Part shown: positions 25,982 through 62,952 of the stretch, in pieces
How the letters are laid out: each line of letters begins with the position of its first letter
How positions within the stretch are numbered: position 1 is the first letter of the stretch
DNA from: a bacterium
GTDB taxonomy: Bacteria; Sysuimicrobiota; Sysuimicrobiia; Sysuimicrobiales; Segetimicrobiaceae
Reading direction: 5' to 3'
Assembly: GCA_035295165.1 (NCBI GenBank)
Contig: DATGJN010000091.1
Location: 62,001-126,000 of the forward strand
DNA: 64,000 nt
The notes under the pieces: model-generated
What the model was told of the DNA's origin: nothing
The model's input: only the letters and a program-made list of their open reading frames with translations
Databases searched by the model: none
Translations under genes and position numbers: made by a program

Positions 25982-26129
25982 CAAGTCACCCCGGCATCAC
26001 GGCATCTGGGGCGCCGCGCGCCAACTTCTTGGTCGGCTGCGGCCGTGCTCGCCGTCGCGATCCGTTTCTCACGCCCGGACCCCGCGACCGCGCTGGCAAC
26101 GAAGAGGTTGGTCATGTTACGCTCGACTG

Positions 26130-26158
26130 TGGACTGTCGACATTTTCCATGCTATCAT
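26130..26158 (+). promoter_or_regulatory. Promoter of the M20/transporter operon with candidate operator
   Basis: TGGACT (26130-26135) and TATCAT (26153-26158), 17 bases apart, form a good sigma-70-like pair. The perfect 8-base palindrome TGTCGACA (26135-26142) overlaps the start of the spacer and is a candidate GntR operator. On the minus strand, TAACAT (complement of 26114-26119) could be the -10 of the divergent GntR operon. The region is visibly richer in A+T than its surroundings. Inference from sequence alone. Confidence 0.45.
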
Positions 26159-26241
26159 GCAGGCGGTCACTGTCAATAGACGACCGTCGTCACGACCTCG
26201 TCCACGCTTGCCAGATGAGAGGTGCGGGTGAGAGGTCTCCC

Positions 26242-27453: not shown

Positions 27454-27526
27454 CGACCGGGTGGCGCTCGCGCCCGCGGCCGTCGATTCGAGGGGCCATT
27501 CAACGGTGGTGAGAGGAGGAGGCAGC

Positions 27527-29206: not shown

Positions 29207-29242
29207 GGCGCCGCCCGCGTTGAACGGTTCGTGAGGCGCCGC

Positions 29243-29272
29243 CGAGGGCCCGGCCGGCCGGCCGGGCCCTCG
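29243..29272 (+). terminator. Perfect 30-base palindrome after the binding-protein gene
   Basis: The 15-base half-site CGAGGGCCCGGCCGG at 29243-29257 is followed directly by its exact reverse complement to 29272. In RNA it would form a very stable GC hairpin 36 bases after the stop of the binding-protein gene and 65 bases before the first permease gene. There is no T-run. In ABC operons such hairpins often protect or partially terminate the message so that the binding protein is made in excess. A 13-base direct repeat, GTGAGGCGCCGCC (29203-29215 and 29231-29243), lies just upstream. Confidence 0.55.
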
Positions 29273-29337
29273 CTCCGCACCCGCGCGACGGACAGGCGGC
29301 AGCGGGCCGTCCGTGGACGCGTGACGCGCCGCCGCGC

Positions 29338-31133: not shown

Positions 31134-31183
31134 GATCCGCGCCCACGTGTGGCGCGAAGATCGATAGGATCGGAGGCTGAGAG

Positions 31184-32428: not shown

Positions 32429-32443
32429 CAGGGGAGGGTGGTC

Positions 32444-47604: not shown

Positions 47605-47640
47605 CGCGAGGGAGCCGGCCCGAAGACCGGCTCCCTCGCG
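47605..47640. terminator. Bidirectional terminator hairpin
   Basis: CGCGAGGGAGCCGG (47605-47618) and CCGGCTCCCTCGCG (47627-47640) are perfect 14-base arms with the 8-base loop CCCGAAGA. It sits in the gap between the convergent DinB-fold gene (stop 47565) and binding-protein gene (stop 47675) and can serve both. Confidence 0.75.
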
Positions 47641-47674
47641 GCGCGTTGGGGTCGATGGGGTGCGGCTCAGGCCG

Positions 47675-49300
47675 TCACTGCGTGTATCGCCACTGCTCGA
47701 TGTTCCACCCGTCCCCGGCGTTGCTGGGGTTGCCGGTGAGGCCGGCGAGCTTGCTGCTCGTCGCGGTGGCGGAGACCATGTAGTACACGGGGATCGTCGG
47801 CACGTCCCGCCCGAGCATCTCCTGCGCCTTCCAGAACAGCGGCTTGGCTTTTGCGGGATCGATTTCCTGTTCGGCCTGGTTGATGACGTCCGTCACGTCC
47901 TTGTTCACGTAGAAGTCTTCGTTCAGGCCGTTCGGCGGCAGCGCGTCGGCCGAGTAGAAGATCGACAGCGCCGGCGGCGCGCCGATCTTCCAGCGGTGGA
48001 ACAGGGTGTCGCACTTGCCGGTGACCCGGATCTCCCCGTACACGGTCGAGGAGTAGTTGTGGATCTGCATATCCATGCCGACCGCGCGCAGTTCGGCCTG
48101 GATGACCTGTTGGACCCGGTCCTGGGTCGCGTCCCCGGTCGCATTGCAGTTCTCGAACGTCAGCGCGTGACCGCCCTTCTGGAGCACGCCGTTCGCGCCC
48201 GGCGTCCAGCCCGCCGCGGCGAGGAGCTGCTTCGCCTTGGCCGGATTGTACGTGTACTGACTGTACGCCTTCGCGTCGTACGCCCACGTCAGCGGGGTCA
48301 TCGGCGGCCCCGCGGCCGTGCCGAGGCCGCCGAGGACGCTCGACACGATCCCGCGCTTGTCGATCGCATACGCGACGGCCTGCCGCACGCGGACGTCCTG
48401 CCACATCGGCCGCTTGAGGTTGAAGTCGAAGTGCATCCACGCGTTGAGCGGGTAGACGACGACCTTCACGTTCGGCGTGGCCTGCAGCGCTTTGATCTGG
48501 TCGAACGGCACGAGCCACGCGACCTGCGCCTCACCCGTCTTCACCATGTTGATCCGCGTGTTCGGGTCCTGGACAAACCGCCACACGATCCGCTTGATGT
48601 GCGGGAGCCCCTGCGCGGCGCCGCGGTAGTACGGGTTCGCGACCTCGACGAGCGACTGCCCGGGCTGCCACGACTCGACCTTGTAGGGACCGGTGAGCAC
48701 GGGGCTCCGGTTGTAGGCGGTGTAGGTGTTCAGGTCGTGGCCCTCGAGGATGTGCTTCGGCATCAGGTACCGGAACGTGTTCACGATGTAGCCCGAGTAC
48801 GGGGTCTTGAACGTCGCGACGACGGTCAGGTCGTCCGGCGTGTCCACCGACTCGATCAGGTTCCAGCCCGGGCGCGTGTCAACGCGGAACGTCGTGTCGA
48901 TCATCGCCTTGTACGTGAACAGGGCGTCCGCCGATGTCACCGGCTGGCCGTCGCTCCACTTGAGCCCCGGCTTGAGCTTCCACGTCACGATCATCTTCTG
49001 GCCGACCAGCTTCACGCCGCCGTTGGACAGGAGCGGGACCTGTCGGGCCAGCAGCGGGATGTACCGCATCTTGTCATCGTTCGTGACGAACCCCTCCGCC
49101 AAGCCCATGTCTCCGACCGCAGGAATGTGCGTGGCGTAGGGGTTCAGCGTGTCGGGTTCCAGGGGATACGCGACCGTGAGCGTGTCCGGTGTCGCCGCAG
49201 CGCCCGCCGGCGGCCCAGGGATCGCGATCAGGCCCGCGACCAGAACCAGCCATGCGATCGTACAGATCGTCCCCGTCATCGTGCGCGCGCGTGTCCTCAT
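47675..49300 (-). CDS. ABC transporter substrate-binding protein (SBP_bac_5), Sec signal
   Basis: A 541-residue family-5 binding protein with an ordinary Sec signal (about residues 1-35, LVLVAGLIAIPGPPAGAAA), unlike the two Tat-type binding proteins at 22232 and 27527. 'YPLEPDTLNPYATHIPAVGD', 'WKLKPGLKWSDGQPVTSADA', 'PYKVESWQPGQSL', 'QAVAYAIDKRGIVSSVLGGL' and 'AKAKQLLAAAGWTPG' are the family landmarks. It is the last gene of the long minus-strand catabolic run. Its permeases are probably those at 56955-58765, on the far side of the RpiR gene, since none is adjacent. Confidence 0.88.
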   Translation of the reverse strand: MRTRARTMTGTICTIAWLVLVAGLIAIPGPPAGAAATPDTLTVAYPLEPDTLNPYATHIPAVGDMGLAEGFVTNDDKMRYIPLLARQVPLLSNGGVKLVGQKMIVTWKLKPGLKWSDGQPVTSADALFTYKAMIDTTFRVDTRPGWNLIESVDTPDDLTVVATFKTPYSGYIVNTFRYLMPKHILEGHDLNTYTAYNRSPVLTGPYKVESWQPGQSLVEVANPYYRGAAQGLPHIKRIVWRFVQDPNTRINMVKTGEAQVAWLVPFDQIKALQATPNVKVVVYPLNAWMHFDFNLKRPMWQDVRVRQAVAYAIDKRGIVSSVLGGLGTAAGPPMTPLTWAYDAKAYSQYTYNPAKAKQLLAAAGWTPGANGVLQKGGHALTFENCNATGDATQDRVQQVIQAELRAVGMDMQIHNYSSTVYGEIRVTGKCDTLFHRWKIGAPPALSIFYSADALPPNGLNEDFYVNKDVTDVINQAEQEIDPAKAKPLFWKAQEMLGRDVPTIPVYYMVSATATSSKLAGLTGNPSNAGDGWNIEQWRYTQ

Positions 49301-49340
49301 CGTTGTCCCTCCCCTGGGGTCTCGTACCGTGATTCCCGTG

Positions 49341-50615
49341 CTACACGGCTCCCGATGCGGGGCCGTCGAGCAACGTCTTGTAGACGCGACCGTCCTTCAT
49401 GACCAGCGCGAGGCGGCCGGGGTCCGCAACGGCGGCGATGTCGTCGAGTGGATCGCCGGCGACGAGCAGCAGGTCGGCCCGGCGCCCGGGCCTGAGCGTG
49501 CCGACGCGGTCGTCCATCGAGAGCAGCCGGGCGGCGTCCCCGGTGGACGCCACGATCGACTGCATCGGGGTCATCCCCGCCTCGACCATGTAGACGAGCT
49601 CCCGCGCGTTCTCGGCGTGTCCGAGCGCGCCTGCGTCGGTGCCCATCGCCATCGGCACGCCGAGCGCGAGCGCCCGGCGGAACACCTTGCGCTTTTCCTC
49701 GAGCATCGCCGGCACCCGCGCGGCGGTGTAGGCCGGAACGGACGTCGGGTCGCGCCGGATCCGTTCCACCATCCGCTGCGTGACGCTGAGGGTGGGGACC
49801 AGCCAGATCCGGCGGCGGGCCATCTCCTCAAGCTGGCGGTCGCTGGCGAGCCCCCCGTGCTCGACCGTGTCCACGCCCGCGGCGAGGCACATGTCGAGGC
49901 TCTCGCCGCCGTGCGCGTGCGCCATGACGCGGACGTCCTTGCTGTGCGCTTCGTCGACGATGACCCGCACCTCGTCGAGACAGAACTGGCGGGTCGTGTA
50001 CCCTCCGCGCGGCGACCCGCCGCCGCCGTTCGTCGCGATCTTGATCCAGTCCGCACCGAGCTTCAGCACCTCCCGGACCTTGCGGCGCACGCCATCCGTG
50101 CCGTCGGCGATGCCGTCCGGAATCCCAGGAAGCCTCGGCAGATCCGAGGAGAGCCCGGACGGCTGCGTGAGATCGCCGTGGCCGCCGGTCTGGGAAATGA
50201 TCACCAGGCTGATGAGGAGCCGGGGCCCGTCGATCACGCCCTGGTCGACCGCCATCTTGACGCCGAGGTCGACCCCGGCGGCGTCGCGCAGGGTCGTGAC
50301 CCCGGCCCGCAGCGTGTCGTCCAGCCACCGGCCCACCTGCAGCACCGCCAGGCTCGGCGCCAGTTGGAAGCGGCGCGTCAGGTCGAGCCCGAAGTGCGCG
50401 ACGTGGTCGTGGCAGTCGATGATCCCCGGCATCGCCGTGCACCGCGACCCGTCATACACGTGGGCGCCCGCCGGAAGCGCGCCCAGCCGGTCGAGCGGGC
50501 GCACGTCGGCGATCAGCCCGTCCTCGATGATCACGGCGGTCGCCCCCGTCGCCGCGGCCCCGGTGCCTTCGATCAGCCGGCCGGCTTTGACGACGTGGGT
50601 CACGGCTGCGGTCAC
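49341..50615 (-). CDS. Metal-dependent amidohydrolase (prolidase-like), paralogue 1
   Basis: A 424-residue amidohydrolase. Metal ligands His69-x-His71 (IIDCHDHVAHFG), the presumed carboxylated Lys192 (DWIKIATNGGGGSP), 'MAHAHGGESLDMC', 'DTVEHGGLASD' and the catalytic Asp327 in AMGTDAGALGHAENA. The same motifs occur almost word for word in the gene at 51435, and less closely at 31184. Family members cleave dipeptides such as Xaa-Pro or N-acyl amino acids. The GTG at 50615 overlaps the stop of the creatininase-family gene by four bases, so the two are translationally coupled. Confidence 0.87.
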   Translation of the reverse strand: MTAAVTHVVKAGRLIEGTGAAATGATAVIIEDGLIADVRPLDRLGALPAGAHVYDGSRCTAMPGIIDCHDHVAHFGLDLTRRFQLAPSLAVLQVGRWLDDTLRAGVTTLRDAAGVDLGVKMAVDQGVIDGPRLLISLVIISQTGGHGDLTQPSGLSSDLPRLPGIPDGIADGTDGVRRKVREVLKLGADWIKIATNGGGGSPRGGYTTRQFCLDEVRVIVDEAHSKDVRVMAHAHGGESLDMCLAAGVDTVEHGGLASDRQLEEMARRRIWLVPTLSVTQRMVERIRRDPTSVPAYTAARVPAMLEEKRKVFRRALALGVPMAMGTDAGALGHAENARELVYMVEAGMTPMQSIVASTGDAARLLSMDDRVGTLRPGRRADLLLVAGDPLDDIAAVADPGRLALVMKDGRVYKTLLDGPASGAV

Positions 50616-51433
50616 GCCCGCGCCGACCCCGCGGCCCGGCGGCGCTGGGCCTCCTGGCTGAGGCGCAGGAAGGCCGGCACGAACTCGCGCGCGTACGCGA
50701 CCATGCGGTCCAGGATCTGCCGGCCACGCGCTTCCGAGGCGACGCTCCAGTCGCCGCTTGCGCCGCTCGGCAGCACGTCCGACGCCTCGTTGAAGAGGCC
50801 GATCTCGAACCCCTGGAACTTCCCGGTCCGGTACGACGCGACCGAGATCGGCCCGTCGCTCGCTACGTACCCGCGAGTCTCGGCGTGCCCCTCGAGCGCC
50901 ACGGCGTCCGGCGCGAGCGCCATCATGACGGAGATCGTGGGCTCGCCCCCGTGCCCGAAGACCTGGTCGGCGTTCGGGGTGATGTCGCGGGCGACGTGGT
51001 TCGCGAGGCGCCACGGGTACAGGATGGCCAGGAGCACGCCGTGCCGCTGCCGCATCTTCGCGGCGACCGGCTCGATCGCGGCTTCGTTCGGGCCGTGGTT
51101 GTTCACGATGACGACGTGGCGGAACCCGTGCGCGATGTATCCCCCGACGACGTCCTGGACGACCGCGCGCAGCGTATCGAGCCGCAGGCTCACCGTTCCG
51201 GGAAACGCCGTGTACGGCGTGTACCCAAACCACAGCGGCGGCGCGACGTAGACATCGTCGAGACCCTCCGCGGTCCGCCGGCAGACGTACTCGGCGAGGA
51301 TCGTGTCCGCGCCGGTGAAGCCGGCGGGGCCGTGCTGCTCCACGCACCCGATCGGCACGAGCAGCACCGACCCGTCCTTCGGGATTGCGCCGATCTCCTT
51401 GTAGCTCATCAGCGCGAGGCTCCACTTCCGCAT
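50612..51433 (-). CDS. Creatininase-family amidohydrolase
   Basis: A 273-residue creatininase fold protein with the canonical first motif VEQHGPAGFTGADT (Glu, His and Asp metal ligands) and 'VVIVNNHGPNEAAIEPVAA' for the second. 'GHGGEPTISVMMALAPDAV' carries the conserved Glu. Substrates of relatives are creatinine, formamides and lactams. GGGAGGATGTAGA precedes the ATG; the upstream amidohydrolase gene ends one base before that ATG. Sandwiched between two amidohydrolase paralogues. In contrast to the creatininase-like protein at 38199, its metal site is intact. Confidence 0.87.
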   Translation of the reverse strand: MRKWSLALMSYKEIGAIPKDGSVLLVPIGCVEQHGPAGFTGADTILAEYVCRRTAEGLDDVYVAPPLWFGYTPYTAFPGTVSLRLDTLRAVVQDVVGGYIAHGFRHVVIVNNHGPNEAAIEPVAAKMRQRHGVLLAILYPWRLANHVARDITPNADQVFGHGGEPTISVMMALAPDAVALEGHAETRGYVASDGPISVASYRTGKFQGFEIGLFNEASDVLPSGASGDWSVASEARGRQILDRMVAYAREFVPAFLRLSQEAQRRRAAGSARA

Positions 51434-51434
51434 T

Positions 51435-52715
51435 CTACATCCTCCCGGTCCGCGTCCCGGCCCACGCGGGCGCCGGGGATTTGTAGACGATCCCGTCCTT
51501 CATCACGAGCGCGATGCGGTGCGGATCCGCGACGACGGCGATGTTCGCGAGCGGGTCGCCATCCACCAGGATGAGGTCGGCGAGCATCCCGGGCGCCACC
51601 GCACCGAGCGAGTCGGCCATGCCGAGCAGTGCCGCGGCCATGCTCGTCGACGCCACGATCGACTGCATCGGCGTCATGCCGCTCTCCGTCATGTAGACGA
51701 GCTCCTTCGCGTTCTGGGCGTGGCCGAGCGCGCCCGCGTCGGTGCCCATCGCGATCTTGACGCCGCAGTCCAGCGCCCGCTTGAAGTTGCGTCGCTGCGT
51801 GTCGAACACCAGCGGCAGCTTCGCCGCCGTATACCACGGCAGGGACTGCGGGTCGGCGTCGAGCCGCTCTTTCATCCTCGCCGTCACGCTCAGCGTCGGG
51901 ACGAGCCAGATGCCGAGGCGGGCCATCCGCTCGATGTCGGCCTCCTCGGCGACCGCGGCGTGTTCGATCGAGTCCACGCCGGCCTCGAGGCAGAGCTTGA
52001 TCCCGTCGCCACCGTGGGCGTGCACCATGACACCCTTGCCCGCGGCGTGGGCCTCGTCCACCATGGCGCGGAGCTCCTCGAGCGTGAACTGGCGCGTGGC
52101 CGGTCCGCCGCGCGGCGAGCCGACCCCGCCGGTGGTCGCGATCTTGATCCAGTCGGCGCCGAGCCGGATGACCTCGCGCACCTTCTTGCGGCACTCGTCG
52201 GGCCCGTCGGCGATCCCGTCGGGGACGCCGGGCAGCCGGGGAAAGTCCGAGGCGAGGCCGCACGGCTGGGTCAGGTCGCCGTGCCCGCCCGTCTGCGTGA
52301 TGATGACGAGGCTGATGAACAGCCGCGGCCCGGCGATGACGCCCTGCTCGATCGCCAGCTTCACGCCGAGGTCCGCGCCCGCCGCGTCGCGGAACGACGT
52401 GATGCCCGCCATCAGCGTCTCCGTGGCCCACCGCCCCGTCTGCAGCACCGCGAGGCTGGGCGCGGTGTTCATGCGCCGCCGGAGGTCCATGCCGAGGTGG
52501 GCGATGTGGTCGTGCGCGTCGATCAGCCCGGGCAGCAGGGTGAGCGACGGATGATCGTACACCGCGACGCGGTCGCCCACCGGTCCGAGCGTGGCCGCGG
52601 GGCGCACGTCCGTGATGCGGTTACCCTCGACGACAACCGCGATGTCGCGTTGCGGGAGACCGCCCGTCCCGTCGATCAGGCGTCCGGCTTTGATGATGCT
52701 CGTGGATCCTGCCAC
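51435..52715 (-). CDS. Metal-dependent amidohydrolase (prolidase-like), paralogue 2
   Basis: A 426-residue amidohydrolase closely similar to the product of 49341. It shares LIDAHDHIAHLGMDLRRR, 'SLVIITQTGGHGDLTQP', DWIKIATTGGVGSPRGG, 'MVHAHGGDGIKLCLEAGVD' and 'AMGTDAGALGHAQNAKELVY', with the full metal set (HxH, Lys, two His, Asp). The GTG at 52715 follows GAGGAGGAGC. The two paralogues flank the creatininase gene; a duplication followed by specialisation on two amide bonds of one substrate, or on stereoisomers, would explain this. No signal peptide, so cytoplasmic. Confidence 0.88.
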   Translation of the reverse strand: MAGSTSIIKAGRLIDGTGGLPQRDIAVVVEGNRITDVRPAATLGPVGDRVAVYDHPSLTLLPGLIDAHDHIAHLGMDLRRRMNTAPSLAVLQTGRWATETLMAGITSFRDAAGADLGVKLAIEQGVIAGPRLFISLVIITQTGGHGDLTQPCGLASDFPRLPGVPDGIADGPDECRKKVREVIRLGADWIKIATTGGVGSPRGGPATRQFTLEELRAMVDEAHAAGKGVMVHAHGGDGIKLCLEAGVDSIEHAAVAEEADIERMARLGIWLVPTLSVTARMKERLDADPQSLPWYTAAKLPLVFDTQRRNFKRALDCGVKIAMGTDAGALGHAQNAKELVYMTESGMTPMQSIVASTSMAAALLGMADSLGAVAPGMLADLILVDGDPLANIAVVADPHRIALVMKDGIVYKSPAPAWAGTRTGRM

Positions 52716-52757
52716 CGTGTGCTCCTCCTCGGCTCCCGGCCGGCGCGCCCCGCGTCC

Positions 52758-53837
52758 CTACGGCAGCGCCTTGCCGAGCCGGCGGATCAGCTCGTACAGC
52801 TCGTCGAAGTTGTGCCAGCCGAGCTCCCGCTCGTGGTCCTCGATCTCGTAGATCATCCGGTGCAGCTTCGTGTTGAGAGGGACCGGGACGCCGATCTGCG
52901 CGGCCTTCTCCTCGAGCGGGCCGTGTCCCCAGCGGACCTCGGACTTGCGCTTGCGGTAGACGATGTCCCAGTGGATGCCCGAGCCCTGCTTCACATAGGT
53001 GTGGGTGCCCTGCCGCTGGTGTTCGATCGCGAACCGGGCCTGCGTCTCCACGGTGGCGCGGATCCACGCAAACAGCCGCGCGGTGTCCTCGTGGGTCGTC
53101 GGAAAGTAGAGCGGCGGCTCGAAGAACGGTCCGCTCGGGACGTCGATCCCGTGGGCGCGGGCGACCTCGAGCGCCTCGCGGACCAGGGGGCCCGTGACGC
53201 GCTGGGCGCGGACGTCCGAGAGCACGACGTGGTACGGGAGATCGATCAGGGCGCTCGCCACGGTCTGCGACCCGAAGCACTTCTTCGCCCAGATGCGGGC
53301 CCGGATGTCGGTCAACAGGTGACACTCCGCGACCTCGGAGAGGAGGCGGTGGACCTCGCGCACGCGAGGGGTGAGGCGGCCGTCGAGCTCGCCGACGTAG
53401 ACCGGGCCCTCGATGACGAACTCGAGGTGACCGGGCTCGACGTAGGCGCCGCCGTAGTCGGGGAGGGCGCCGATCGTGCGCTCCGCGCCCACGATCGACG
53501 CGATCTGGTCTTCGTTCACGAGGCCGTTTTGGAGGGAGACGACGAACCCGTCCGAACGCAGCAGGGGCTTGATGGCCGCGACGGCGTCCTGCGTGTGCTG
53601 GGACTTCACCGACAGGAGGACGCATTCGAGCGGGTCCCGGAGCTCGTCCGGGGTGAACGCCCGCTGCGGCGGCAGCCGGTGGTCGCCGCGGCCGCCGTCG
53701 ACGAAGAGCCCCTTCGTGCGCAGGTGCTCGACGTGCTCGCGGTTCGTGTCCACGAACGTGACGTCCTCGCCCGCGAGCGCGAGCCACGCCCCGGTCAGCC
53801 CTCCAATGGCTCCCGCGCCCACGATCGTGATCTGCAT
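52758..53837 (-). CDS. Ketopantoate-reductase-like dehydrogenase, paralogue A
   Basis: A 359-residue PanE/ApbA fold protein. MQITIVGAGAIGGLTGAWLA is the NADP-binding start and SLQNGLVNED the QNG motif. The helix that in PanE reads WxKLxxNxxxN is here IWAKKCFGSQTV: the Lys is kept, but the substrate-binding Asn is Gly. The protein is longer than PanE and ends with an extra conserved segment (GSGIHWDIVYRKRKSEVRW). It matches paralogue B next to it over long uninterrupted stretches, so the duplication is recent. The start at 53837 is set by alignment with B; an ATG four codons earlier exists. Probably oxidises or reduces a 2-keto/hydroxy acid or imino acid rather than ketopantoate. Confidence 0.82.
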   Translation of the reverse strand: MQITIVGAGAIGGLTGAWLALAGEDVTFVDTNREHVEHLRTKGLFVDGGRGDHRLPPQRAFTPDELRDPLECVLLSVKSQHTQDAVAAIKPLLRSDGFVVSLQNGLVNEDQIASIVGAERTIGALPDYGGAYVEPGHLEFVIEGPVYVGELDGRLTPRVREVHRLLSEVAECHLLTDIRARIWAKKCFGSQTVASALIDLPYHVVLSDVRAQRVTGPLVREALEVARAHGIDVPSGPFFEPPLYFPTTHEDTARLFAWIRATVETQARFAIEHQRQGTHTYVKQGSGIHWDIVYRKRKSEVRWGHGPLEEKAAQIGVPVPLNTKLHRMIYEIEDHERELGWHNFDELYELIRRLGKALP

Positions 53838-53865
53838 CGGCCGCCCCATGTGATCCGAATGACCG

Positions 53866-54945
53866 CTACGGGTAGTCTTTGCCGAGCGACTGAATCAGCG
53901 CGCGCAGCTCATCGAAGTTGTGCCAGCCGAGCTCGCGTTGGTGATCCTCGATCTCGTAGATCATCTGGTGGAGCCGGCCGTTGAGCGGCACCGGGACGCC
54001 GGCGTCCCTGGCCTTGTCCTCGAGCGGCGCGTGGCTCCAGCGAACCTCGGACTTACGCTTGCGGTAGACGATGTCCCAGTGGATGCCCGACCCCTTCTTG
54101 ATGTACGTGTGGCCGCCGGGCCGCTGCTCTTGCCGCCGGTACGCGCTCTGCTTGGCCTGGGCCTCGTCCATGAACGCGAACAACCGCCGCGTATCCTCGG
54201 CCGTCTTGGGGAAGTACAGCGCGGGCTCGAAGAACGGCCCGCCGGGGACGTCGACGCCGTGCGCGTACGCCACCTCGAGCGCTTCGCGGACGAGCGGACC
54301 GACGACGCGCCGGGCGCGCTCCTCGCCCACCACTAGGTACGAGGGGGCGTCGACCAGCGCGCTCGCGACGATCTGCGCGCCGAAGCACGTCTTCGCCCAG
54401 ATCCGCGCCTTGATGTCGGTGAGGAGCTCCGCCTCCGCCACGTGCGAGAGGAGGCGGTGCACCTCCCTGACGCGCGGGGTGATCCGACCGTCGAGCTCGC
54501 CGACGTAGACCGGGCCCTCGATCACGAACTCGAGGTGGCCGGGGTCGACGTACGCGCCGCCGTAATCCGGCAGCGCGCCGATCGTGCGCGCGGCGCCCAC
54601 GATCGAGGCGATCTCGTCCTCGTTGGCGAGGCCGTTCTGCAGCGAGACGACGAACCCGTCCGGACGGAGCAGCGGCTTGATCGTCTCGACGGCGGCTCGA
54701 GTGTGCTGGGACTTCACGGAAAGGAAGACGCACTCGAGGGGGTCCCGGAGCTCGTCCGGCGTGAGCGCCCGCTGCGGCGGCAGCCGGTGGTCCCCGCGGC
54801 CGCCGTCGATGACGAGCCCCCGGGTGCGCAGGTGTTCGACGTGCTCCCGATTCGCGTCCACGAACGTGACGTCTTCGCCGGCCATCGACATCCACGCGCC
54901 CGCGATCCCGCCGATCGCGCCCGATCCGACGATCGTGACCCGCAT
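53866..54945 (-). CDS. Ketopantoate-reductase-like dehydrogenase, paralogue B
   Basis: A 359-residue close paralogue of A. MRVTIVGSGAIGGIAGAWMS, VSLQNGLANEDEI, 'RTIGALPDYGGAYVDPGHLE', the altered helix IWAKTCFGAQIV (Gly at the Asn position) and the C-terminal SGIHWDIVYRKRKSEVRW are shared. GAGGAGGACGAGCG precedes the ATG at 54945. Only 28 bases separate it from paralogue A. Together with paralogue C at 58871 the cluster encodes three such enzymes, so the fold must be central to the pathway, perhaps acting on different intermediates or enantiomers. Confidence 0.82.
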   Translation of the reverse strand: MRVTIVGSGAIGGIAGAWMSMAGEDVTFVDANREHVEHLRTRGLVIDGGRGDHRLPPQRALTPDELRDPLECVFLSVKSQHTRAAVETIKPLLRPDGFVVSLQNGLANEDEIASIVGAARTIGALPDYGGAYVDPGHLEFVIEGPVYVGELDGRITPRVREVHRLLSHVAEAELLTDIKARIWAKTCFGAQIVASALVDAPSYLVVGEERARRVVGPLVREALEVAYAHGVDVPGGPFFEPALYFPKTAEDTRRLFAFMDEAQAKQSAYRRQEQRPGGHTYIKKGSGIHWDIVYRKRKSEVRWSHAPLEDKARDAGVPVPLNGRLHQMIYEIEDHQRELGWHNFDELRALIQSLGKDYP

Positions 54946-54978
54946 CGCTCGTCCTCCTCGATCTCCGTCGATCGTCAC

Positions 54979-55827
54979 TCAGCCGAGCAGGTTGGCGGGC
55001 ACGCCCTGTCCGTAGGGGCTCGTGACGTCCAGCGTCTCGAGGTACCCGTGCACCGTCCGCGCCACCTCGGCGATGAACTGCTCGGAGACGTTCCGATCCG
55101 GCGGGCCGTACTTGGTCATGACGCAGATCGCGTACGGCCGGCGCTTCTGGTAGATGATCGCGCCGTCGCACCGGACCCGCTCCATCCCGCCCGGCTTGTT
55201 GGCGATCACGATGTCCTGCGGCAGGCCCGGAGCGAGGTAGCCGCGCTTGGGCTTTTTCAAGATGGCGAGCGTCTCGGTGCACACGAAGCGGCTGAGCCGC
55301 TCGCCGCGGTGCAGGATCTCGAGGAACTGCACGACCTCCAGCGGGCTCGCGACGTTCTCGTCGCCGCGGATCACCGACGCCTGGTCCTGCATCTTCCGGC
55401 GCAGCGTCGTCTGCGACAGGCCGAGCCCGCGCAGCATCGCGTTCGTGCCGTCGATCGTCGCCCAGTCGATGCACAGATTGGTCGCCGTGTTGTCGGAGAC
55501 GATGATCATCAGCACCGCGACGTCGCGCACGGTCAGCTCCTCGGCGTCGTCCAGGTACGTGAGCACGCCGCTCCCCGGGACGCGCACGGCGTCGTCGATC
55601 ACCACCTTGCGGGCCAGGTCGATCTCCCCGCCCTCGGCGCGCTGCATCAGCCGGGCCAGGATGTGGATCTTGATGGTGGATGCGGTCGGGAACACCTCCT
55701 GCTCGTGCACCGCGACCTGCCGGCCGGTCGCAAGATCGCGGACACACAGGCCCGCGGCGCCGGGGAACGCGGCGACGAGCCCCTCCAGGTCCGCGGACAA
55801 CCGCTGCCACACCAGCTGCTCAGACAT
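54979..55827 (-). CDS. Beta-lactamase-fold serine hydrolase
   Basis: A 282-residue protein of the class A beta-lactamase/DD-peptidase fold. Ser50-x-x-Lys53 (TASTIKIH), Ser111-Asp-Asn113 (VSDNTATN) and Lys211-Pro-Gly (ANKPGGME) are the three active-site motifs. There is no signal peptide, and at the position of the deacylating Glu of class A enzymes (ten residues before the Asp of RGDENVASP) lies Met146. It is therefore unlikely to be an antibiotic-resistance enzyme; a cytoplasmic amidase, esterase or lactam-opening enzyme in the local pathway is more plausible. Located between the RpiR gene and the dehydrogenase paralogues, all on the minus strand. Confidence 0.82.
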   Translation of the reverse strand: MSEQLVWQRLSADLEGLVAAFPGAAGLCVRDLATGRQVAVHEQEVFPTASTIKIHILARLMQRAEGGEIDLARKVVIDDAVRVPGSGVLTYLDDAEELTVRDVAVLMIIVSDNTATNLCIDWATIDGTNAMLRGLGLSQTTLRRKMQDQASVIRGDENVASPLEVVQFLEILHRGERLSRFVCTETLAILKKPKRGYLAPGLPQDIVIANKPGGMERVRCDGAIIYQKRRPYAICVMTKYGPPDRNVSEQFIAEVARTVHGYLETLDVTSPYGQGVPANLLG

Positions 55828-55854
55828 ACGCCACGCGCCCCCTTTGCGTCGCCG

Positions 55855-56730
55855 TCACTTCACAAACACGTCGAGGTCCCGGAACGCGCGCCGGATCCGC
55901 CAGTACCGGGCCCGCCGCGCGGTCGTCAGGCGGGTCCAGATCGCCGCGACCAGGCCGTACACGATCGACAGGCTGGCGGTCACGGACTGGAAGAACAGCA
56001 TCCCCTCGGTCGGCACGATGACCTTGAGCTTCGCGTGCCGGGCGAGCGGCGACACCGAGCTGTCGGCGATCACCGCGGTGGGAATGCCGTGCTCGCTCGC
56101 CCACTGCACGGCGGCGACCACGTCGCGGTCGCACTGCCAGAAGCCGATGCCGATGACGAGGTCGCGCGACGTGAGGCCGGTGAGCTGCGTGGCCCAGTGC
56201 ACGCGGCTGCGCGCCTCCGCACGGACGTTGATGTCGAGCGCGGCGCACAGATGCGCGAGCGCCACCGCGGGCGCAGCGTAGCTGCCGAACGCGACGATCA
56301 GCACCTGGTTCGCCGACAGCATCTGCGAGGCGAGCCGATCGAGCACGCGGGTGTCGATCGTCTCGAGGAGGCCCTGCAGGTTCTGGACGTCGCGCAGGAT
56401 CGCCGCGCGGTACACGTTTCGGGACGGCGTCCGCTGCCGCTCGATCAACTCGAGCGGTTCGAGGCGGCCGAGGTAGGTGTGGCGCAACTCCTGACGGAGC
56501 TGGTGGAACCCCGTAAACCCGACCGCCTTCGCGAATCGGGAGATCGTCGCGGCGTCCACGCCGGCCTTCTCGGCGAGCTGCCGCGTGCTGGCCAGCGACG
56601 CGAACTGGGGGTTGTTGGCGACGAAGTGGGCGACGCGCTGGTGGGTGGGGCTGAGCCGCGGCAGGGACTCCGCCAGCAGGTCGGCGAGCACGACGCGCTT
56701 GACCGCGGGCGACTCCGTGTGCGGGGTCAT
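55855..56730 (-). CDS. RpiR/MurR-family transcriptional regulator
   Basis: A 291-residue regulator. The N-terminal HTH_6 domain contains 'LSPTHQRVAHFVANNPQFAS', 'TRQLAEKAGVDAATISRFAK' and 'AVGFTGFHQLRQELR'. The C-terminal SIS domain (about 120-260) has 'QVLIVAFGSYAAPAVALAHL' and 'RDLVIGIGFWQCDRDVVAAV', the sugar-phosphate-isomerase-like fold that senses a phosphosugar or similar ligand. It heads the minus-strand run and is divergent from the permeases, so it should control both. ATG 56730 has no Shine-Dalgarno; TGTAAT on the minus strand (complement of 56740-56745) lies 9 bases before it, suggesting a very short or absent leader. Confidence 0.88.
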   Translation of the reverse strand: MTPHTESPAVKRVVLADLLAESLPRLSPTHQRVAHFVANNPQFASLASTRQLAEKAGVDAATISRFAKAVGFTGFHQLRQELRHTYLGRLEPLELIERQRTPSRNVYRAAILRDVQNLQGLLETIDTRVLDRLASQMLSANQVLIVAFGSYAAPAVALAHLCAALDINVRAEARSRVHWATQLTGLTSRDLVIGIGFWQCDRDVVAAVQWASEHGIPTAVIADSSVSPLARHAKLKVIVPTEGMLFFQSVTASLSIVYGLVAAIWTRLTTARRARYWRIRRAFRDLDVFVK

Positions 56731-56757
56731 GGGCGGCGTATTACAACAAATGGTGCA

Positions 56758-56779
56758 GAAACTCCTTTTGGCAGGTTTC
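56758..56779. promoter_or_regulatory. Candidate RpiR operator in the divergent intergenic region
   Basis: GAAAC (56758-56762) and GTTTC (56775-56779) form an inverted repeat with a 12-base spacer, in an A+T-rich patch between the RpiR gene and the permease operon. RpiR-family sites often contain GAAA/TTTC half-sites. Evidence is pattern and position only. Confidence 0.4.
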
Positions 56780-56954
56780 CGTTGCAGCCACGGGCAGGAG
56801 ATCGCGCGCAGCGGCCAGAAGCACGGCAGCCAATCCCGCGGCGGAAGCCGCACGGGAAGGCGGGGGCGGGAGTGAGCGGACGGGCGGACGCGGGACCTCC
56901 CGCGCCGGGCGGCGCGGCCGCAGCCGAGCGGCGGGGCCTGGGGGAGGGCCCGCG

Positions 56955-57896
56955 ATGACCAGGTTCGTGCTGCGGCGCCTGCTCGGGGCCGTGCCGCTCG
57001 TGATCGGCGTCTCGATGATCGTGTTCGGGATCTTGCAGGCGATGCCGGGCGGCCCGCTCGCGGTCTACCTCGACAATCCCTACATCACGGCCAGGGACAT
57101 CGCGCTGATCAAGCACCAGCTCGGCCTCGACCAGCCGCTGTACGTCCAGTACGCGCGATGGTTTGGGGCGTACGCGCTCGGGCACTGGGGGATCAGTTAC
57201 TCTTCCGGGGAGCCGGTGGCGTGGCTGATCTTCGCCCGGCTCCCCGCAACGCTCTTGCTCATGGGGACGTCGTTCCTGCTCGCGATGCTCTTCGCGCTCA
57301 CGACGGGAGTCTACAGCGCGGTGCACCAGCACTCGGCGTTCGACTACGCCGCGACGGTCTTCTCGTTCCTCGGGATCTCGATGCCGGTGTTCTGGTTCGG
57401 GTTGATGCTGCAGCTCCTGGTCGCGGTGCGCCTCGGCTGGCTCCCGGTCGCCGGCTACGGCGCCGGCGGGTGGCTCCCGGTCGCCCAACATCTCGTGCTC
57501 CCGAGCATCGTGCTGGCGATGTTCACCGCCGGCCGGTGGAGCCGATTCACCCGCGCCGGCGTGCTCGAGGTGCTGCGCCAGGACTACATTCGCACGGCGC
57601 GGGCCAAGGGGCTGGCGGAACGGCGCGTCGTATTCCGCCACGCGCTCCGCAACAGCCTGATCCCGGTCGTTACGGTCGTCGCGCTCGACCTCGCCGGCCT
57701 GCTATCGGGCGCCGTGGTGACCGAGACGGTGTTCGCGTGGCCGGGCATGGGCAGCCTCTTGATCCAGTCGATCTCCAACGTGGACTACCCCACGCTGCTC
57801 GCGATTCTGATGCTCAGCTCGTTTGCGATCATCCTGTCGAACCTGCTGGCCGACGTGCTGTACAGCCTGCTCGATCCGCGGATCGTGTACCGATGA
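56955..57896 (+). CDS. Peptide/opine-type ABC transporter permease (DppB-like)
   Basis: A 313-residue DppB-type permease: MTRFVLRRLLGAVPLVIGVS, 'MPGGPLAVYLDNPYIT', the EAA loop 'IRTARAKGLAERRVVFRHAL' and the end 'LYSLLDPRIVYR', with about six helices. GGGGGAGGG precedes the ATG. It is the first gene of the operon divergent from the RpiR gene and likely partners the binding protein at 47675. No ATPase is encoded in the cluster. Confidence 0.9.
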   Translation: MTRFVLRRLLGAVPLVIGVSMIVFGILQAMPGGPLAVYLDNPYITARDIALIKHQLGLDQPLYVQYARWFGAYALGHWGISYSSGEPVAWLIFARLPATLLLMGTSFLLAMLFALTTGVYSAVHQHSAFDYAATVFSFLGISMPVFWFGLMLQLLVAVRLGWLPVAGYGAGGWLPVAQHLVLPSIVLAMFTAGRWSRFTRAGVLEVLRQDYIRTARAKGLAERRVVFRHALRNSLIPVVTVVALDLAGLLSGAVVTETVFAWPGMGSLLIQSISNVDYPTLLAILMLSSFAIILSNLLADVLYSLLDPRIVYR

Positions 57897-58765
57897 GCGC
57901 GCGGGCGGTCGCGTTGCCGCGGCGATCGAGCCTGCTGCGTGACGCGTGGCGCCGCTTCGAGCGGGACCGGCTTGCGGCCGCGGGCGCGGTCGCGCTCCTC
58001 GTCCTCGCGACCGGCGCGGCCGCCGCCCCGCTGTTCACGTGGTACGCCCCAAATCAGGTAGACCTCGCGCGGCTCGACGCGGCGCCGTCCGCTGTGCACT
58101 GGTTCGGCACGGACGATCTGGGCCGGGACGCGTTCAGCCGCGCGTTGTACGCGGGGCGGGTGTCGCTGTCGATCGGCGTCGGGGCCGCGGTGGTGTCGGC
58201 GCTCGTGGGGACCGCCGTCGGCGCGTGCGCTGGGTACTTCGGCGGCGTCGTGGACAGCGTGCTGATGCGGGCGACGGACGTGGTCCTGTCGATCCCGCCG
58301 CTGCCGCTCGTCATCGTGCTCTCGGCGATCGTGAAGCCGTCGCCGCAGATCCTCATCCTGATCATCGCCGGGATCGGGTGGATGGGCACCGCGAGGCTCG
58401 TGCGCGGCGCGTTTCTCTCGATCCGGGAGACGGAGTACATCGAGGCGGCCCGCGCCGCGGGGTGCGGCAGCGCGCGCATCATCCTCAGGCACGCCCTGCC
58501 GAACAGCCTGGCGCCGATCATCGTCGCGGCGACGCTGGCGGTCGGCAACGCGATCATCACGGAGTCGGTGCTGTCGTTTCTCGGGGTGGGGATCCAGCCC
58601 CCGACGGCGTCGTGGGGCAACATGCTGCAGAACGCCGAGTCGACGATGACGACGAAGCCGTGGCTCTCGGTGTTCCCGGGCGTGTTCATCCTGGTGAGCG
58701 TGCTCGGGGTCAACGCGCTCGGGGACGGTCTGCGCGACGCGCTCGACGTCCGCATGAAGGAGTGA
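57893..58765 (+). CDS. Peptide/opine-type ABC transporter permease (DppC-like)
   Basis: A 290-residue DppC-type permease. 'HWFGTDDLGRDAFSRALYAG' is the family hallmark, the EAA loop is 'IEAARAAGCGSARIILRHAL', and 'LSFLGVGIQPPTASWGNMLQ' and 'GDGLRDALDVRMKE' end the protein. Its ATG overlaps the TGA of the DppB-like gene. It is followed after about 105 bases by the third ketopantoate-reductase-like gene, probably in the same transcript. Confidence 0.9.
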   Translation: MSARAVALPRRSSLLRDAWRRFERDRLAAAGAVALLVLATGAAAAPLFTWYAPNQVDLARLDAAPSAVHWFGTDDLGRDAFSRALYAGRVSLSIGVGAAVVSALVGTAVGACAGYFGGVVDSVLMRATDVVLSIPPLPLVIVLSAIVKPSPQILILIIAGIGWMGTARLVRGAFLSIRETEYIEAARAAGCGSARIILRHALPNSLAPIIVAATLAVGNAIITESVLSFLGVGIQPPTASWGNMLQNAESTMTTKPWLSVFPGVFILVSVLGVNALGDGLRDALDVRMKE

Positions 58766-58870
58766 CCCCGCGGGCAGACGAGGAACCGGCGGCGAAGTCA
58801 TGGGACGGCGGCGCGAGCGGCGCGCCCGCCGGCGTGCACGGCATTCGAGAAGAGCATCGGGGAGGCGGGG

Positions 58871-59947
58871 ATGGCGAAGATCGCAATCGTGGGGTGCGGG
58901 GCGATCGGCGGATTGGCAGGATTCTACATGGCGCGGGCGGGCGAGGACGTGCTGTTCATCGACCAGAACGCGGATCACGTCCGGGCGATCCGCGAGCGCG
59001 GGATCGCGGTCAACGGGGTGTACGGCTCGATGTCGATCCCGCCGCAGCGCGCCTGTACGCCGGCCGAGATCGCCGAACCGCTCGACGGCCTGGTGTTCCT
59101 GGCGTGCAAGTCGCAGGCGACCGACGCGGCGATTCGGGCCATCGCGCCGCGCCTGGCGCCCTCGGCGTGTGTGGTCTCGCTGCAGAACGGCATGAACGAG
59201 GACACGATCGCCGACGTCGTGGGCCGCGCGCGCACGATGGGCGCGCTGCCCGACTACGGCGGGGCATATCTCGATCCCGGCGTGCTTGAGGCCGTCCACG
59301 AGGGGACGGTGTACGTCGGCGAGCTCGACGGCAGCCTGACCCCGCGCGTCCGCGAAGCGGCCCGGCTGCTCGGGATCGGCCCGAACGCGTGCGAGCTGCT
59401 GACCGACATCGTCGGGCGGCTGTGGACGAAGCACGTGTACAATTCGCAGATCGTCGTGACCGCGCTCGTGAACGGAACGGTCGTGGAGGTACTCGGCAAC
59501 CGAGACGTCCAGCGTCTGGCCGCCGCCGCCGTGCGCGAGGCGATGCAGGTCTCGGACGCCGCCGGCGTCCGAGTGCACGGCGACCGGTGGTTCGATCCTG
59601 GGCTCTACCACCCCGAGACGCCCGCGGACACCGCCCGGCTGCTCGCCTCGTACGACCGGCTCGTGGAACACCTGGGCGGCCATCAGGTCGGCGACGGACC
59701 GGGCGGCTACAAGTACGTCAAGAAGGCGAGCGGCATCCACTGGGACCTCGTGTACCGCAAGCGGAAGAGCGAGGCGTCGCACCTCACGGTCTGCACCCAC
59801 GCGGCCCGCTACGGGGTGGCCGTGCCGCTCAATGCCAAGATCGTCTCGATGATCGAGGAAGTCGAGGCCGGGAAACGCGAGCTCGGCTGGCACAACATCG
59901 CGGAGGGCACCGCGTACGCGAAGCAGATCGGCGCGACGCTCCCCTGA
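58871..59947 (+). CDS. Ketopantoate-reductase-like dehydrogenase, paralogue C
   Basis: A 358-residue PanE-fold protein. MAKIAIVGCGAIGGLAGFYM is the NADP-binding start, SLQNGMNEDTIAD the QNG motif, and 'LWTKHVYNSQIVVTALVNG' keeps the Asn expected after the catalytic Lys, unlike paralogues A and B. The C-terminal SGIHWDLVYRKRKSEASH segment and 'RELGWHNIAEGTAYAKQIG' tail are shared with them. GGGGAGGCGGGG lies before the ATG. It sits in the permease operon, on the other side of the RpiR gene from A and B, so it is the more ancestral-looking of the three. Confidence 0.84.
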   Translation: MAKIAIVGCGAIGGLAGFYMARAGEDVLFIDQNADHVRAIRERGIAVNGVYGSMSIPPQRACTPAEIAEPLDGLVFLACKSQATDAAIRAIAPRLAPSACVVSLQNGMNEDTIADVVGRARTMGALPDYGGAYLDPGVLEAVHEGTVYVGELDGSLTPRVREAARLLGIGPNACELLTDIVGRLWTKHVYNSQIVVTALVNGTVVEVLGNRDVQRLAAAAVREAMQVSDAAGVRVHGDRWFDPGLYHPETPADTARLLASYDRLVEHLGGHQVGDGPGGYKYVKKASGIHWDLVYRKRKSEASHLTVCTHAARYGVAVPLNAKIVSMIEEVEAGKRELGWHNIAEGTAYAKQIGATLP

Positions 59948-60331: not shown

Positions 60332-62068
60332 ATGACACGCTACGGTTCCGATCTCGTGGTCGACCTGCTTCGCGGGTTCGGGATAGAATACGCTGCGCTC
60401 AATCCGGGCGCAACGTTCCGGGGGCTTCATGACTCGCTCGTCAACTACGGCGGAAACGAACGCCCCGAGATCATCCTGTGCTGTCACGAGGAAATCAGCG
60501 TCGCGATCGCCCACGGATACGCGAAGGCCGCGGGCAAGCCGATGGCGGTTGGGCTGCACGACCTCGTCGGGCTGCAGCACGCCAGCATGGCGATTTTCAA
60601 CGCGTGGTGCGACAGGGTGCCCGTGCTCCTGCTCGGTGGTGCCGGGCCGATGGCGATCGAACACCGGCGTCCGTGGATCGACTGGATTCACACGGGGCTC
60701 GTTCAGGGGCAGCTGGTCCGCGATTACGTGAAGTGGGACGATCAACCCAGCAGCATTCCCTCGATGACAGAAGCCCTGCTCCGTGCACATCGGATCGCCG
60801 TGACCGAGCCGCAGGGCCCGGTGTACGTCGCGCTCGACGCGGCACTTCAAGAGGGCGTGGTGCCGGCAGACACGCCGCTTCCCGAGATCGCCCGGTACGC
60901 ACGGCCGGAGCGTCTGCAGGGGAGTCCGGCCGCGCTGGACGCGGCCGCCGAACTGCTGGCGCGCGCCGAGCGTCCGGTGGTCCTGGCCGAGCGTCTGGGC
61001 CGGCACGCGGGAGCGTTCGACGCGCTGCGGGAGTTGGCGGAACTCCTGGCAGCCCCCGTGGTCGATCTGTACAGTCACGGGCGCCCGAATCTGGCCAACA
61101 CCCATCCGCTGGACCTCACCGCCGCCAAGAACGACCTCCTTCGTGAGGCGGACGTGATCCTCTCCCTCGATGTGATCGATCTCTACGGCGCCTTCGCCGA
61201 AACCAACCCGGCGACCCGCGAGCCGTCGATGATCGTTGGGGCGGGCGCGAGGGTGATTCACATCACCCTCGACGATCTCGCAGCCCGATCTTGGGTGGCG
61301 GACTACCAGCGGCTTGTGCCCGTGGAGATCCACATCATCGCCGACACCGCGCTCGCGGTTCCCGCGCTGGTGGAACGGCTGAGATCGCGCGCGGGCTCCG
61401 AGGGCGAGCGGACGGCTCGCTTTCACCGGCTCAAAGCGGCGCACGAAGCGTCGCGCGAGGAAGGATGGCGGCAGGCTCGCTCGCGATGGGACGATGTGCC
61501 CATTTCTCCGGCACGCCTCGCCGCCGAAGTCTGGGAGCGCATCAAGACCGAGTCCTGGGTCCTCGCAAACGGGGCGTTGGGCGGATGGCCGCGCCGGCTG
61601 TGGGAGTGGACGCGTCACGATGCGTATTTGGGCTTCAGCGGCGGCGCGGGACTGGGCTACGGGCTCGGCGCGTCTATCGGAGCCGCGCTGGCCCATCGGG
61701 GAAGCGGCAGGATTGTCGTGGATCTGCAATCGGACGGCGACTTCTTGTACACTCCGAGCGCGTTGTGGACGGCGGCCCACCACCACATCCCACTGCTCGT
61801 GGTGATGTGCAACAACCGATCCTACGGAAACGACGAGGTCCACCAAGAACTCGTGGCCCGCGCACGGAACAGGCCGGTGGAGAACAAAGTCGTTGGCATC
61901 CGCCTCGAGAAACCTCCGGTGGACTTTGCGGGGCTGGCTCGGTCCCTGGGCGTGCACGGCGAAGGGCCCGTCGACGTCCCCGGCGAGATCGGTCCGGCGC
62001 TGAGACGCGCGCTGCGGGTTATCAAGGATCAGGGACGGCCGGCGCTCGTCGACGTCGTCATGCGATAG
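60332..62068 (+). CDS. Thiamine-diphosphate-dependent enzyme (acetolactate-synthase-like)
   Basis: A 578-residue TPP enzyme with the usual three domains. The PYR domain holds the activating Glu in CCHEEISVAIAHGYAKAAGK. The central domain is the FAD/NAD-like fold ('RPVVLAERLGRHAGAFDALR'). The PP domain has 'FSGGAGLGYGLGASIGAALA' and the Mg/diphosphate motif SDGDFLYTPSALWTAA ending VVMCNNRSYGN. Relatives are acetolactate synthase, benzoylformate decarboxylase and oxalyl-CoA decarboxylase; the substrate is open. ATG 60332 is preferred for the GAGGGAG 8 bases upstream; ATG 60284 is an alternative. It is convergent with the GntR gene. Confidence 0.85.
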   Translation: MTRYGSDLVVDLLRGFGIEYAALNPGATFRGLHDSLVNYGGNERPEIILCCHEEISVAIAHGYAKAAGKPMAVGLHDLVGLQHASMAIFNAWCDRVPVLLLGGAGPMAIEHRRPWIDWIHTGLVQGQLVRDYVKWDDQPSSIPSMTEALLRAHRIAVTEPQGPVYVALDAALQEGVVPADTPLPEIARYARPERLQGSPAALDAAAELLARAERPVVLAERLGRHAGAFDALRELAELLAAPVVDLYSHGRPNLANTHPLDLTAAKNDLLREADVILSLDVIDLYGAFAETNPATREPSMIVGAGARVIHITLDDLAARSWVADYQRLVPVEIHIIADTALAVPALVERLRSRAGSEGERTARFHRLKAAHEASREEGWRQARSRWDDVPISPARLAAEVWERIKTESWVLANGALGGWPRRLWEWTRHDAYLGFSGGAGLGYGLGASIGAALAHRGSGRIVVDLQSDGDFLYTPSALWTAAHHHIPLLVVMCNNRSYGNDEVHQELVARARNRPVENKVVGIRLEKPPVDFAGLARSLGVHGEGPVDVPGEIGPALRRALRVIKDQGRPALVDVVMR

Positions 62069-62133: not shown

Positions 62134-62952
62134 TTACGGTCGGTGGTCGCCGGCTGGGCCGACCGCGCCCGAGGATGCCCCGAGCTTCGCCAAGACAAGC
62201 CTGCCGGCTTTGAGCACGTGGGTTTCCATCAGCGTACCTGCGTCCGCCGCGTCCCGCCGCCGGAGAGCGTCGATGATCGCCGGGTGATCGGCGAGAGTGG
62301 TCTCGACCCATCCCGGGATCGCTTCGTAAAAGTGGCGGGGGACGTACCGGGAGGCGGTACGCAGGAACCAGCGCAGGCGATTGGCGTCGGGCACGTTGTT
62401 GATCGTGCGGTGGAACTGGAAATTCAGCGTCTCGATGGTTGACGTGCGCTCATCCAACGGCTTATGCGTGCTGACCGTCACGATCTCGTTCTGGATCGCC
62501 TCCAGCCTCTCCAGAACGGTCGTCTCGATCGTGGTCGCCGCGCTCGCGGCGAGCTGCCCGGCGACAAATGCGTGAACCCTGAATACATCTGCGATGTCCT
62601 GACGTCGCACAACCGCGACGCGAAACCCACGCCGGGGCAGCACTTCGATGAGCCCTTCGCCGACGAGCGTGACCAGTGCCTCTCTGACAGGCATCGTGCT
62701 CACTCCCAGCCGCTCCGCGATCGCCAGTGGTGCCATCCGCAGGTTCGCCGGGAAGATGCCGCCGATGATGCCGTCGCGGATGTACCGGGCGATTTCATCG
62801 CTGAGCCGGCGGTTGGGGAGCAGCGGGAAGCTGAGAAAGGCGTCTACGGGCGTGTGCGCGGCGGGGATGGCATCCGCGCCGGGTTGCGTTCCTGCAGCCA
62901 GTTTCGTGATCGGACGGGCCTCCTCGCTGGTAGGGAAATGCAATGGCTCCAC
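62134..62952 (-). CDS. GntR-family transcriptional regulator, FCD (FadR) type
   Basis: A 272-residue regulator. After about 45 poorly conserved residues comes the winged helix: 'LSDEIARYIRDGIIGGIFPA', 'PLAIAERLGVSTMPVREALV' and 'LVGEGLIEVLPRRGFRVAVV'. The FCD domain includes 'RVHAFVAGQLAASAATTIET', the His of 'LNFQFHRTINNV' and 'DHPAIIDALRRRDA'. The GTG at 62952 has no Shine-Dalgarno but begins about 8 bases after a -10-like TATCAT, consistent with a leaderless message. Divergent from the binding-protein gene at 63020 and sharing a symmetric promoter region with it, so it very likely regulates that transporter. Confidence 0.87.
   Translation of the reverse strand: MEPLHFPTSEEARPITKLAAGTQPGADAIPAAHTPVDAFLSFPLLPNRRLSDEIARYIRDGIIGGIFPANLRMAPLAIAERLGVSTMPVREALVTLVGEGLIEVLPRRGFRVAVVRRQDIADVFRVHAFVAGQLAASAATTIETTVLERLEAIQNEIVTVSTHKPLDERTSTIETLNFQFHRTINNVPDANRLRWFLRTASRYVPRHFYEAIPGWVETTLADHPAIIDALRRRDAADAGTLMETHVLKAGRLVLAKLGASSGAVGPAGDHRP

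Follow-up and report, generated by a model that had tools for sequence, protein, structure and literature searches.

A co-conserved amidohydrolase, creatininase-family and PanE-like gene set in a putative peptide or N-acyl-amino-acid scavenging locus of the Sysuimicrobiota

Uptake and catabolism clusters of the Dpp/Opp type contain a peptide-type solute-binding protein (SBP_bac_5) and DppB- and DppC-type permeases beside peptidase or amidase genes. We analyzed a stretch of 64,000 nucleotides (the window, G000:C91:62001-126000) from a 4.79-Mb metagenome-assembled genome (MAG, 98% complete) of the phylum Sysuimicrobiota, in which a locus of eleven genes likewise carries a solute-binding protein (SBP) and two permeases (PermB and PermC), but differs from the Dpp/Opp clusters in having no ATPase genes in the run and in pairing the importer with creatininase-family and PanE-like genes. 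The other genes code for two amidohydrolases (AH1 and AH2), a creatininase-family protein (CRN), three PanE-like dehydrogenases (K1, K2 and K3, together K), a beta-lactamase-like protein (BLA) and an RpiR-family regulator (Table 1). Gene calling and Pfam/NCBIfam assignment in the window verified the families, strands and order that a preliminary description of this DNA had given for all eleven, and its proposal of an import and amide-hydrolysis locus with PanE-type dehydrogenases is supported by the co-conservation reported here. Tentatively, we read the locus as a regulated scavenging system for the uptake and hydrolysis of peptides or N-acyl-amino acids, in which the 2-hydroxy acid set free by hydrolysis is then oxidized with NAD. 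All enzymes belong to known types, and their combination appears to be undescribed; as in the preliminary description, no pathway with this gene set was found in our literature search, in which the coverage of subscription journals was limited.

The family comparison covered 12 genomes, that of the window (G000) included. CRN orthologues (E < 1e-160) occur in exactly six of these (G000, G001, G002, G003, G007 and G009), and AH1 orthologues in the identical six. AH1 and CRN are adjacent in all six loci (gap of at most 30 bp), with K3 (75-89% identical) at most 8 kb away in each, while the gene order around these three genes is rearranged among the loci, and the SBP and permease genes switch sides or are lost. 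Since the cluster recurs in relatives with a rearranged order, it exceeds a chance run of genes; common ancestry accounts for part of the conservation, and the linkage has nonetheless outlasted the rearrangement. The conserved neighborhood on which the preliminary description had made its proposal depend is thus found for AH1, CRN and K3, which constitute the core; the accessory genes are those of the importer, BLA and RpiR and the additional paralogues. SBP and both permeases are present in four of the six core loci; SBP lies on the side of CRN in G000 and G003 and on that of K3 in G007 and G009 (its orthologues in the loci of G003, G007 and G009 are 64-86% identical), and BLA is present in three. 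AH2 was found in the genome of the window alone; it is 62-64% identical to every AH1 and has no further orthologue in the order. Besides, the genes are tightly spaced, with gaps along the minus-strand run of 40, -4 or 8, 1, 42, 16, 0 or 33, and 27 bp, depending on the start codon chosen; PermB and PermC overlap by 4 bp, and 105 bp separate the end of PermC from the start of K3.

AH1 and AH2 resemble a group of Xaa-Pro dipeptidases, Xaa-Arg carboxypeptidases, aminoacylases and ochratoxinases (Cc2672, Sgx9260b/c, ADH3-like), with which they share the domain and all amidohydrolase metal residues; in AH1, the ligands of the binuclear site (H68, H70, K191, H232, H252 and D326) are invariant in the amidohydrolase alignment (A4). 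Among solved structures, the two come closest to an amidohydrolase construct, an Xaa-Pro dipeptidase, Cc2672 and an Arg carboxypeptidase, with ochratoxinase further down, but both differ from the group in scoring under the cut-off (500 bits) of the Xaa-Pro dipeptidase profile NF051886, with 325 bits for AH1 and 273 bits for AH2. The Xaa-Pro dipeptidase/ochratoxinase-like group also accepts N-acyl-prolines (PMC11511702). The open reading frame of 694 aa at 49341 in the preliminary description is merely the longest open frame, and AH2 starts at ~50603-50615. CRN shares with the creatininase family (creatininase, MftE and IolN) the domain and four of the five creatininase metal ligands (Glu34, His36, Asp45 and His120), which correspond to E32, H34, D43 and H113 and are conserved among the CRN orthologues. 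On the other hand, Pro115 replaces Glu122, and CRN scores below every equivalog cut-off of the family, reaching 91 bits on the creatininase profile TIGR04448 (cut-off 235 bits).

BLA shares with class A beta-lactamases and PBP-A the SxxK (S50-K53) and SDN (S111-D112-N113) motifs, both invariant, and a KxG box, its nearest relatives being 4ewf and the PBP-A Tll2115. It differs from them in reading KPG instead of KTG, in its N-terminus, which has no signal peptide or signal-like stretch, and in the general base: Met146 aligns where the Tll2115 chains 2j7v (Leu) and 2j9o (Glu) differ, which is the Glu166 position. The score of BLA on the class A beta-lactamase profile NF033103 is 112 bits, under the cut-off of 200 bits. 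The protein is probably cytoplasmic. Lactam opening by a beta-lactamase-fold protein, as previously proposed for this locus, was rejected as the main function of BLA because of the absence of Glu166.

The regulator contains HTH_6 (PF01418, 44.5 bits) and SIS (PF01380, 35.3 bits) domains, both above cut-off. Upstream of rpiR in the window and in G003, G005 and G002 we detected the pattern GCAAC-N33/34-GTTGY with an internal TGCA, which is the sole match in the 64 kb (0.25 expected) and rare over 181 loci, these counts overstating its significance since the pattern was derived from these same sequences. In G005 and G002, an orthologous rpiR (60-66%), preceded by this candidate operator, stands at the head of a cluster of hydantoinase A/B genes and an SBP-PermB-PermC set, so this regulator type is common with a cyclic-amide-hydrolase system; nothing relevant was found in the literature on RpiR with hydantoinase. 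These rpiR genes are the best support for the pathway of the preliminary description, in which up to four hydrolases would open a lactam, hydantoin or cyclic imide step by step and the PanE-like enzymes would process the resulting keto or hydroxy acid. They fit a cyclic-amide-related inducer, and cyclic amides can be opened by creatininase-family enzymes. However, lactam opening is unlikely for a BLA that lacks the deacylating Glu166, the group of AH1 and AH2 is dipeptidase/aminoacylase-like and not dihydropyrimidinase-like, and CRN lies far under the creatininase cut-off with no Glu122 equivalent. The lactam part is unsupported, and we consider stepwise cyclic-amide opening distinctly unlikely.

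The resemblance of BLA to PBP-A, the RpiR-family membership of the regulator and the peptide importer would also suit the scavenging of muropeptides, with a MurR-like RpiR, BLA as a PBP-A-like DD-peptidase and K oxidizing D-lactate from muramic acid. The usual phosphosugar-binding motif of SIS domains is rich in Ser, Gly and Thr, but the SIS domain of RpiR reads IGFWQCDRDVV (or ISFWQCDRDTV) at this place, and this is conserved in four orthologues. Sugar etherase, kinase and LD-peptidase genes are absent from the locus, and BLA is missing from three of the six core loci, which makes muropeptides a very unlikely substrate.

The K proteins share with PanE ketopantoate reductase and D-mandelate dehydrogenase the fold, the GxGxxG motif and the equivalents of the PanE catalytic residues K187, S287 and E301, all three of which are invariant in the K alignment A2, and K187 and E301 also in A6. 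The AF2 model of K3 (pLDDT 93.5) has ketopantoate reductase and D-mandelate dehydrogenase as its best PDB folds (query-normalized TM up to 0.75); an opine-dehydrogenase fold was rejected, since all top fold matches were PanE or D-mandelate dehydrogenase. The K proteins differ from these enzymes in their length (~360 aa versus ~300), in their copy number, which reaches three in a catabolic locus, and in D31, which replaces the NADP-type arginine. This residue, at the end of strand beta-2, is invariant in A2, where 3hn2 has Leu-Arg-Arg. Because an acidic residue here is an established mark of NAD, D31 suggests that K1-K3 prefer NAD over NADP. K1 and K2 are 77% identical, and in a quick tree, with some branches open, K1/K2 and K3 form sister clades, the Devosia/Deinococcus set being the neighboring clade. 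The K2 orthologue of G003 (L039:5426-6506) is split by a frameshift, either through decay or through an assembly error.

On the PanE profile TIGR00745 (cut-off 141.35 bits), K1 scores 150.7, K2 136.0 and K3 135.1 bits. Five genes elsewhere in the genome score 193-239 bits, and with these five better PanE candidates K1-K3 need not serve pantothenate synthesis. Pantothenate (N-pantoyl-beta-alanine) could instead be degraded by the locus, with AH1 or CRN as pantothenase and K oxidizing D-pantoate, given that the compound is itself an N-(2-hydroxyacyl) amino acid and that the fold and catalytic residues of K are those of PanE. We give this hardly any weight: only the fold points to pantoate, the same five better matches count against it, and known pantoate catabolism oxidizes the other hydroxyl.

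Considering these findings, we propose a theoretical scheme for the scavenging of peptides or N-acyl-amino acids. SBP and PermB/PermC would import a small peptide-like or N-acyl-amino-acid compound, energized by DppD/F-type ATPases from elsewhere in the genome. DppABCDF ATPase genes are absent from the run, and 11 oligo_HPY matches lie on other contigs of the genome; since these 11 compare with ~78 SBP_bac_5 genes, the ATPases are probably shared among importers and supplied in trans. The genome contains only about five pairs of oligopeptide-type ATPases. AH1, together with its paralogue AH2, would then cleave the amide bond beside the C-terminal amino acid, as in the Xaa-Pro dipeptidase/aminoacylase group, CRN would cleave a second amide, possibly cyclic or terminal, and BLA, where present, may assist as a serine peptidase or amidase. 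The NAD-linked PanE-type K1-K3 would convert the 2-hydroxy acid freed in this way to the 2-keto acid, and RpiR might govern both arms from a single operator in the divergent promoter region. The scheme builds on the gene content, the AH1-CRN-K3 linkage, the catalytic residues, which are intact in AH1/AH2 and K, and the conserved operator-like element, and we infer the chemistry, the direction and cofactor of the K reaction, the order of the steps and the role of each hydrolase from protein families and genomic context. A more specific version, which we consider unlikely, is a so far undescribed route for the breakdown of N-(2-hydroxyacyl)-amino acids or related pseudo-dipeptides, hydrolyzed by the aminoacylase-like amidohydrolase and the creatininase-family enzyme, in which a long PanE-type subfamily present in several phyla would oxidize the 2-hydroxy acid with NAD.

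Several observations weigh against the proposed scavenging locus. The core loci of G001 and G002 lack SBP and the permeases, and only two of the six core loci have RpiR and K1/K2-type genes, which does not fit the earlier placing of RpiR at the center of a regulon. Close characterized relatives indicate no substrate, and AH1, AH2, CRN, BLA, K2 and K3 are all below NCBIfam cut-offs. Besides, K3 accompanies another importer cluster, one that lacks AH1 and CRN, in G004 (where it closes a cluster of DUF885, Gfo/Idh and GntR, and M20, SBP, PermB and PermC) and in G006 (SBP, PermBC, amidohydrolase and SDR), and thus K3 need not act on the products of AH1 and CRN. The genome is also unusually rich in both SBP_bac_5 (~78) and creatininase-family genes (18-19 in 4.79 Mb), so that some proximity of the two is expected by chance, but the 10 of 18 creatininase-family genes that lie at most 5 kb from an SBP_bac_5 gene, versus 3.1 expected, speak for the scavenging locus. 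The abundance of both families and the other importer clusters of K3 would also suit a rival reading, in which peptide importers and hydrolases have expanded generally in this genome and the genes of the locus are mere neighbors, serving two or three loose functions (an AH1-CRN unit, a K3 shared by importer clusters) and no single pathway. In line with this, SBP, the permeases, RpiR, BLA and K1/K2 are variable in presence, and in G001 and G002 (same genus; L040:11080-14016 and L042:6704-9641) the genes after K3 code for an acyl-CoA dehydrogenase, a mesaconyl-CoA hydratase/MaoC-like protein and a class III CoA-transferase. The AH1-CRN-K3 linkage kept despite rearrangement, the tight spacing and a similar set in another phylum argue against loose functions, which we regard as possible although somewhat unlikely.

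Homologues of K elsewhere were found by an alignment-based search of contigs, a single-sequence K1 query having given no match, and those in other phyla are ~26-44% identical. In Devosia, Rhizobium, Inquilinus, Lichenicola, Deinococcus and Meiothermus, K adjoins Gfo/Idh, DUF885 and usually a Dpp-type importer, and in Devosia, Rhizobium, Lichenicola, Deinococcus and Meiothermus, K relatives stand with Dpp importers and genes for peptidases or amide hydrolases (DUF885, M17 aminopeptidase, gamma-glutamyltranspeptidase); the K-Dpp-Gfo/Idh-DUF885 associations were found in Deinococcota and Alphaproteobacteria. These clusters likewise have a K-family gene beside a Dpp-type importer, with permeases in Meiothermus, Devosia and Rhizobium ~49-55% identical to those of the window, but they carry DUF885 and Gfo/Idh in place of AH1-CRN and, in some, their own ATPases. 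The nearest match to the gene set outside the phylum is a Sphaerobacteraceae MAG contig with PermC, AH, SDR (opposite strand), CRN, AH and K within 5.9 kb. One 12.7-kb contig of G013 combines BLA, CRN and K with two S9 peptidases. A 390-400-aa protein with no Pfam match (L060:8556-9755 and relatives) is encoded immediately upstream of K in Devosia, Rhizobium and Limimaricola; it is fused to a VOC-like domain in Inquilinus, and its Lichenicola counterpart is annotated as DUF885 domain-containing.

The locus belongs to a larger amide/peptide island, which extends over roughly 18-60 kb of the window. The orthologue of a second creatininase-family gene (38199-39011) adjoins CRN in G001 and lies ~2.9 kb from it in G002, and the core neighborhoods of both genomes also hold parts of the other importer cluster of the window (26-33 kb). 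The second importer island (18408-33262) comprises DUF885, PermC, PermB, SBP, Gfo/Idh and GntR, and M20, SBP, PermBC, amidohydrolase and SDR; its relatives in G004 and G006 terminate with K3, and its DUF885/Gfo-Idh part resembles the Deinococcus and Devosia clusters. A TPP enzyme (60332-62068) and a GntR gene (62134-62952) were rejected as parts of the locus, showing no K3 linkage in the relatives examined. Further away (7368-12541), gene-call N-termini indicate an FeS/NAD-binding-type subunit followed by a 1198-aa pyruvate:ferredoxin-oxidoreductase-like protein. At the far end of SBP, the supposed terminator is a strong hairpin (15-bp perfect stem, UUCG loop; -51 kcal/mol over an 85-nt stretch, z -4.15) between convergent genes; it has no T-run and was unreported by the terminator scan, and an intrinsic terminator was therefore rejected. 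The window contains no Rfam match (riboswitch or structured RNA) and no PADLOC match (defense system).

Table 1. Features of the locus, in positions of the window.
Feature	Position	Strand	Evidence
Hairpin, strong, terminator-like	47605..47650	none	No T-run; between convergent genes
SBP, peptide-type solute-binding protein (SBP_bac_5)	47675..49300	-	PF00496 E 2.5e-83; N-terminal hydrophobic signal-like stretch
AH2, amidohydrolase, Xaa-Pro dipeptidase/aminoacylase-like	49341..50603	-	PF01979 E 7e-42; NF051886 273 bits
CRN, creatininase-family amide hydrolase	50612..51433	-	PF02633 E 1.7e-53; TIGR04448 91 bits
AH1, amidohydrolase, Xaa-Pro dipeptidase/Arg-carboxypeptidase/ochratoxinase-like	51435..52715	-	Family profiles, solved relatives, metal ligands
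K1, PanE-like dehydrogenase, tandem duplicate of K2	52758..53849	-	PF02558/PF08546; tree
K2, PanE-like dehydrogenase	53866..54945	-	Pfam; tree; alternative GTG start at 54978
BLA, class-A-beta-lactamase-fold serine hydrolase	54979..55827	-	PF13354 E 1.1e-59
RpiR-family regulator (HTH_6 + SIS)	55855..56730	-	Pfam; orthologues 60-89%
Candidate RpiR operator, GCAAC-N33-GTTGT, internal TGCA	56743..56785	-	Conservation; divergent intergenic region
PermB, DppB-type permease	56955..57896	+	PF00528, PF19300
PermC, DppC/OppC-type permease	57893..58765	+	PF00528, PF12911
K3, PanE-like dehydrogenase, core member	58871..59947	+	PF02558/PF08546; orthologues 75-89% in family

Members of the Sysuimicrobiota are abundant in soil and have been reported to express genes for peptide and amino-acid assimilation (PMC11604079). 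The locus is a testable, conserved unit in this almost uncultured soil phylum, and its module of AH1, CRN and K3 is small enough for expression and screening. Overall, a long PanE-like subfamily that is usually annotated as pantothenate biosynthesis is tied to the uptake of peptides or amides in at least four phyla, and many "2-dehydropantoate 2-reductase" annotations may for this reason be wrong.

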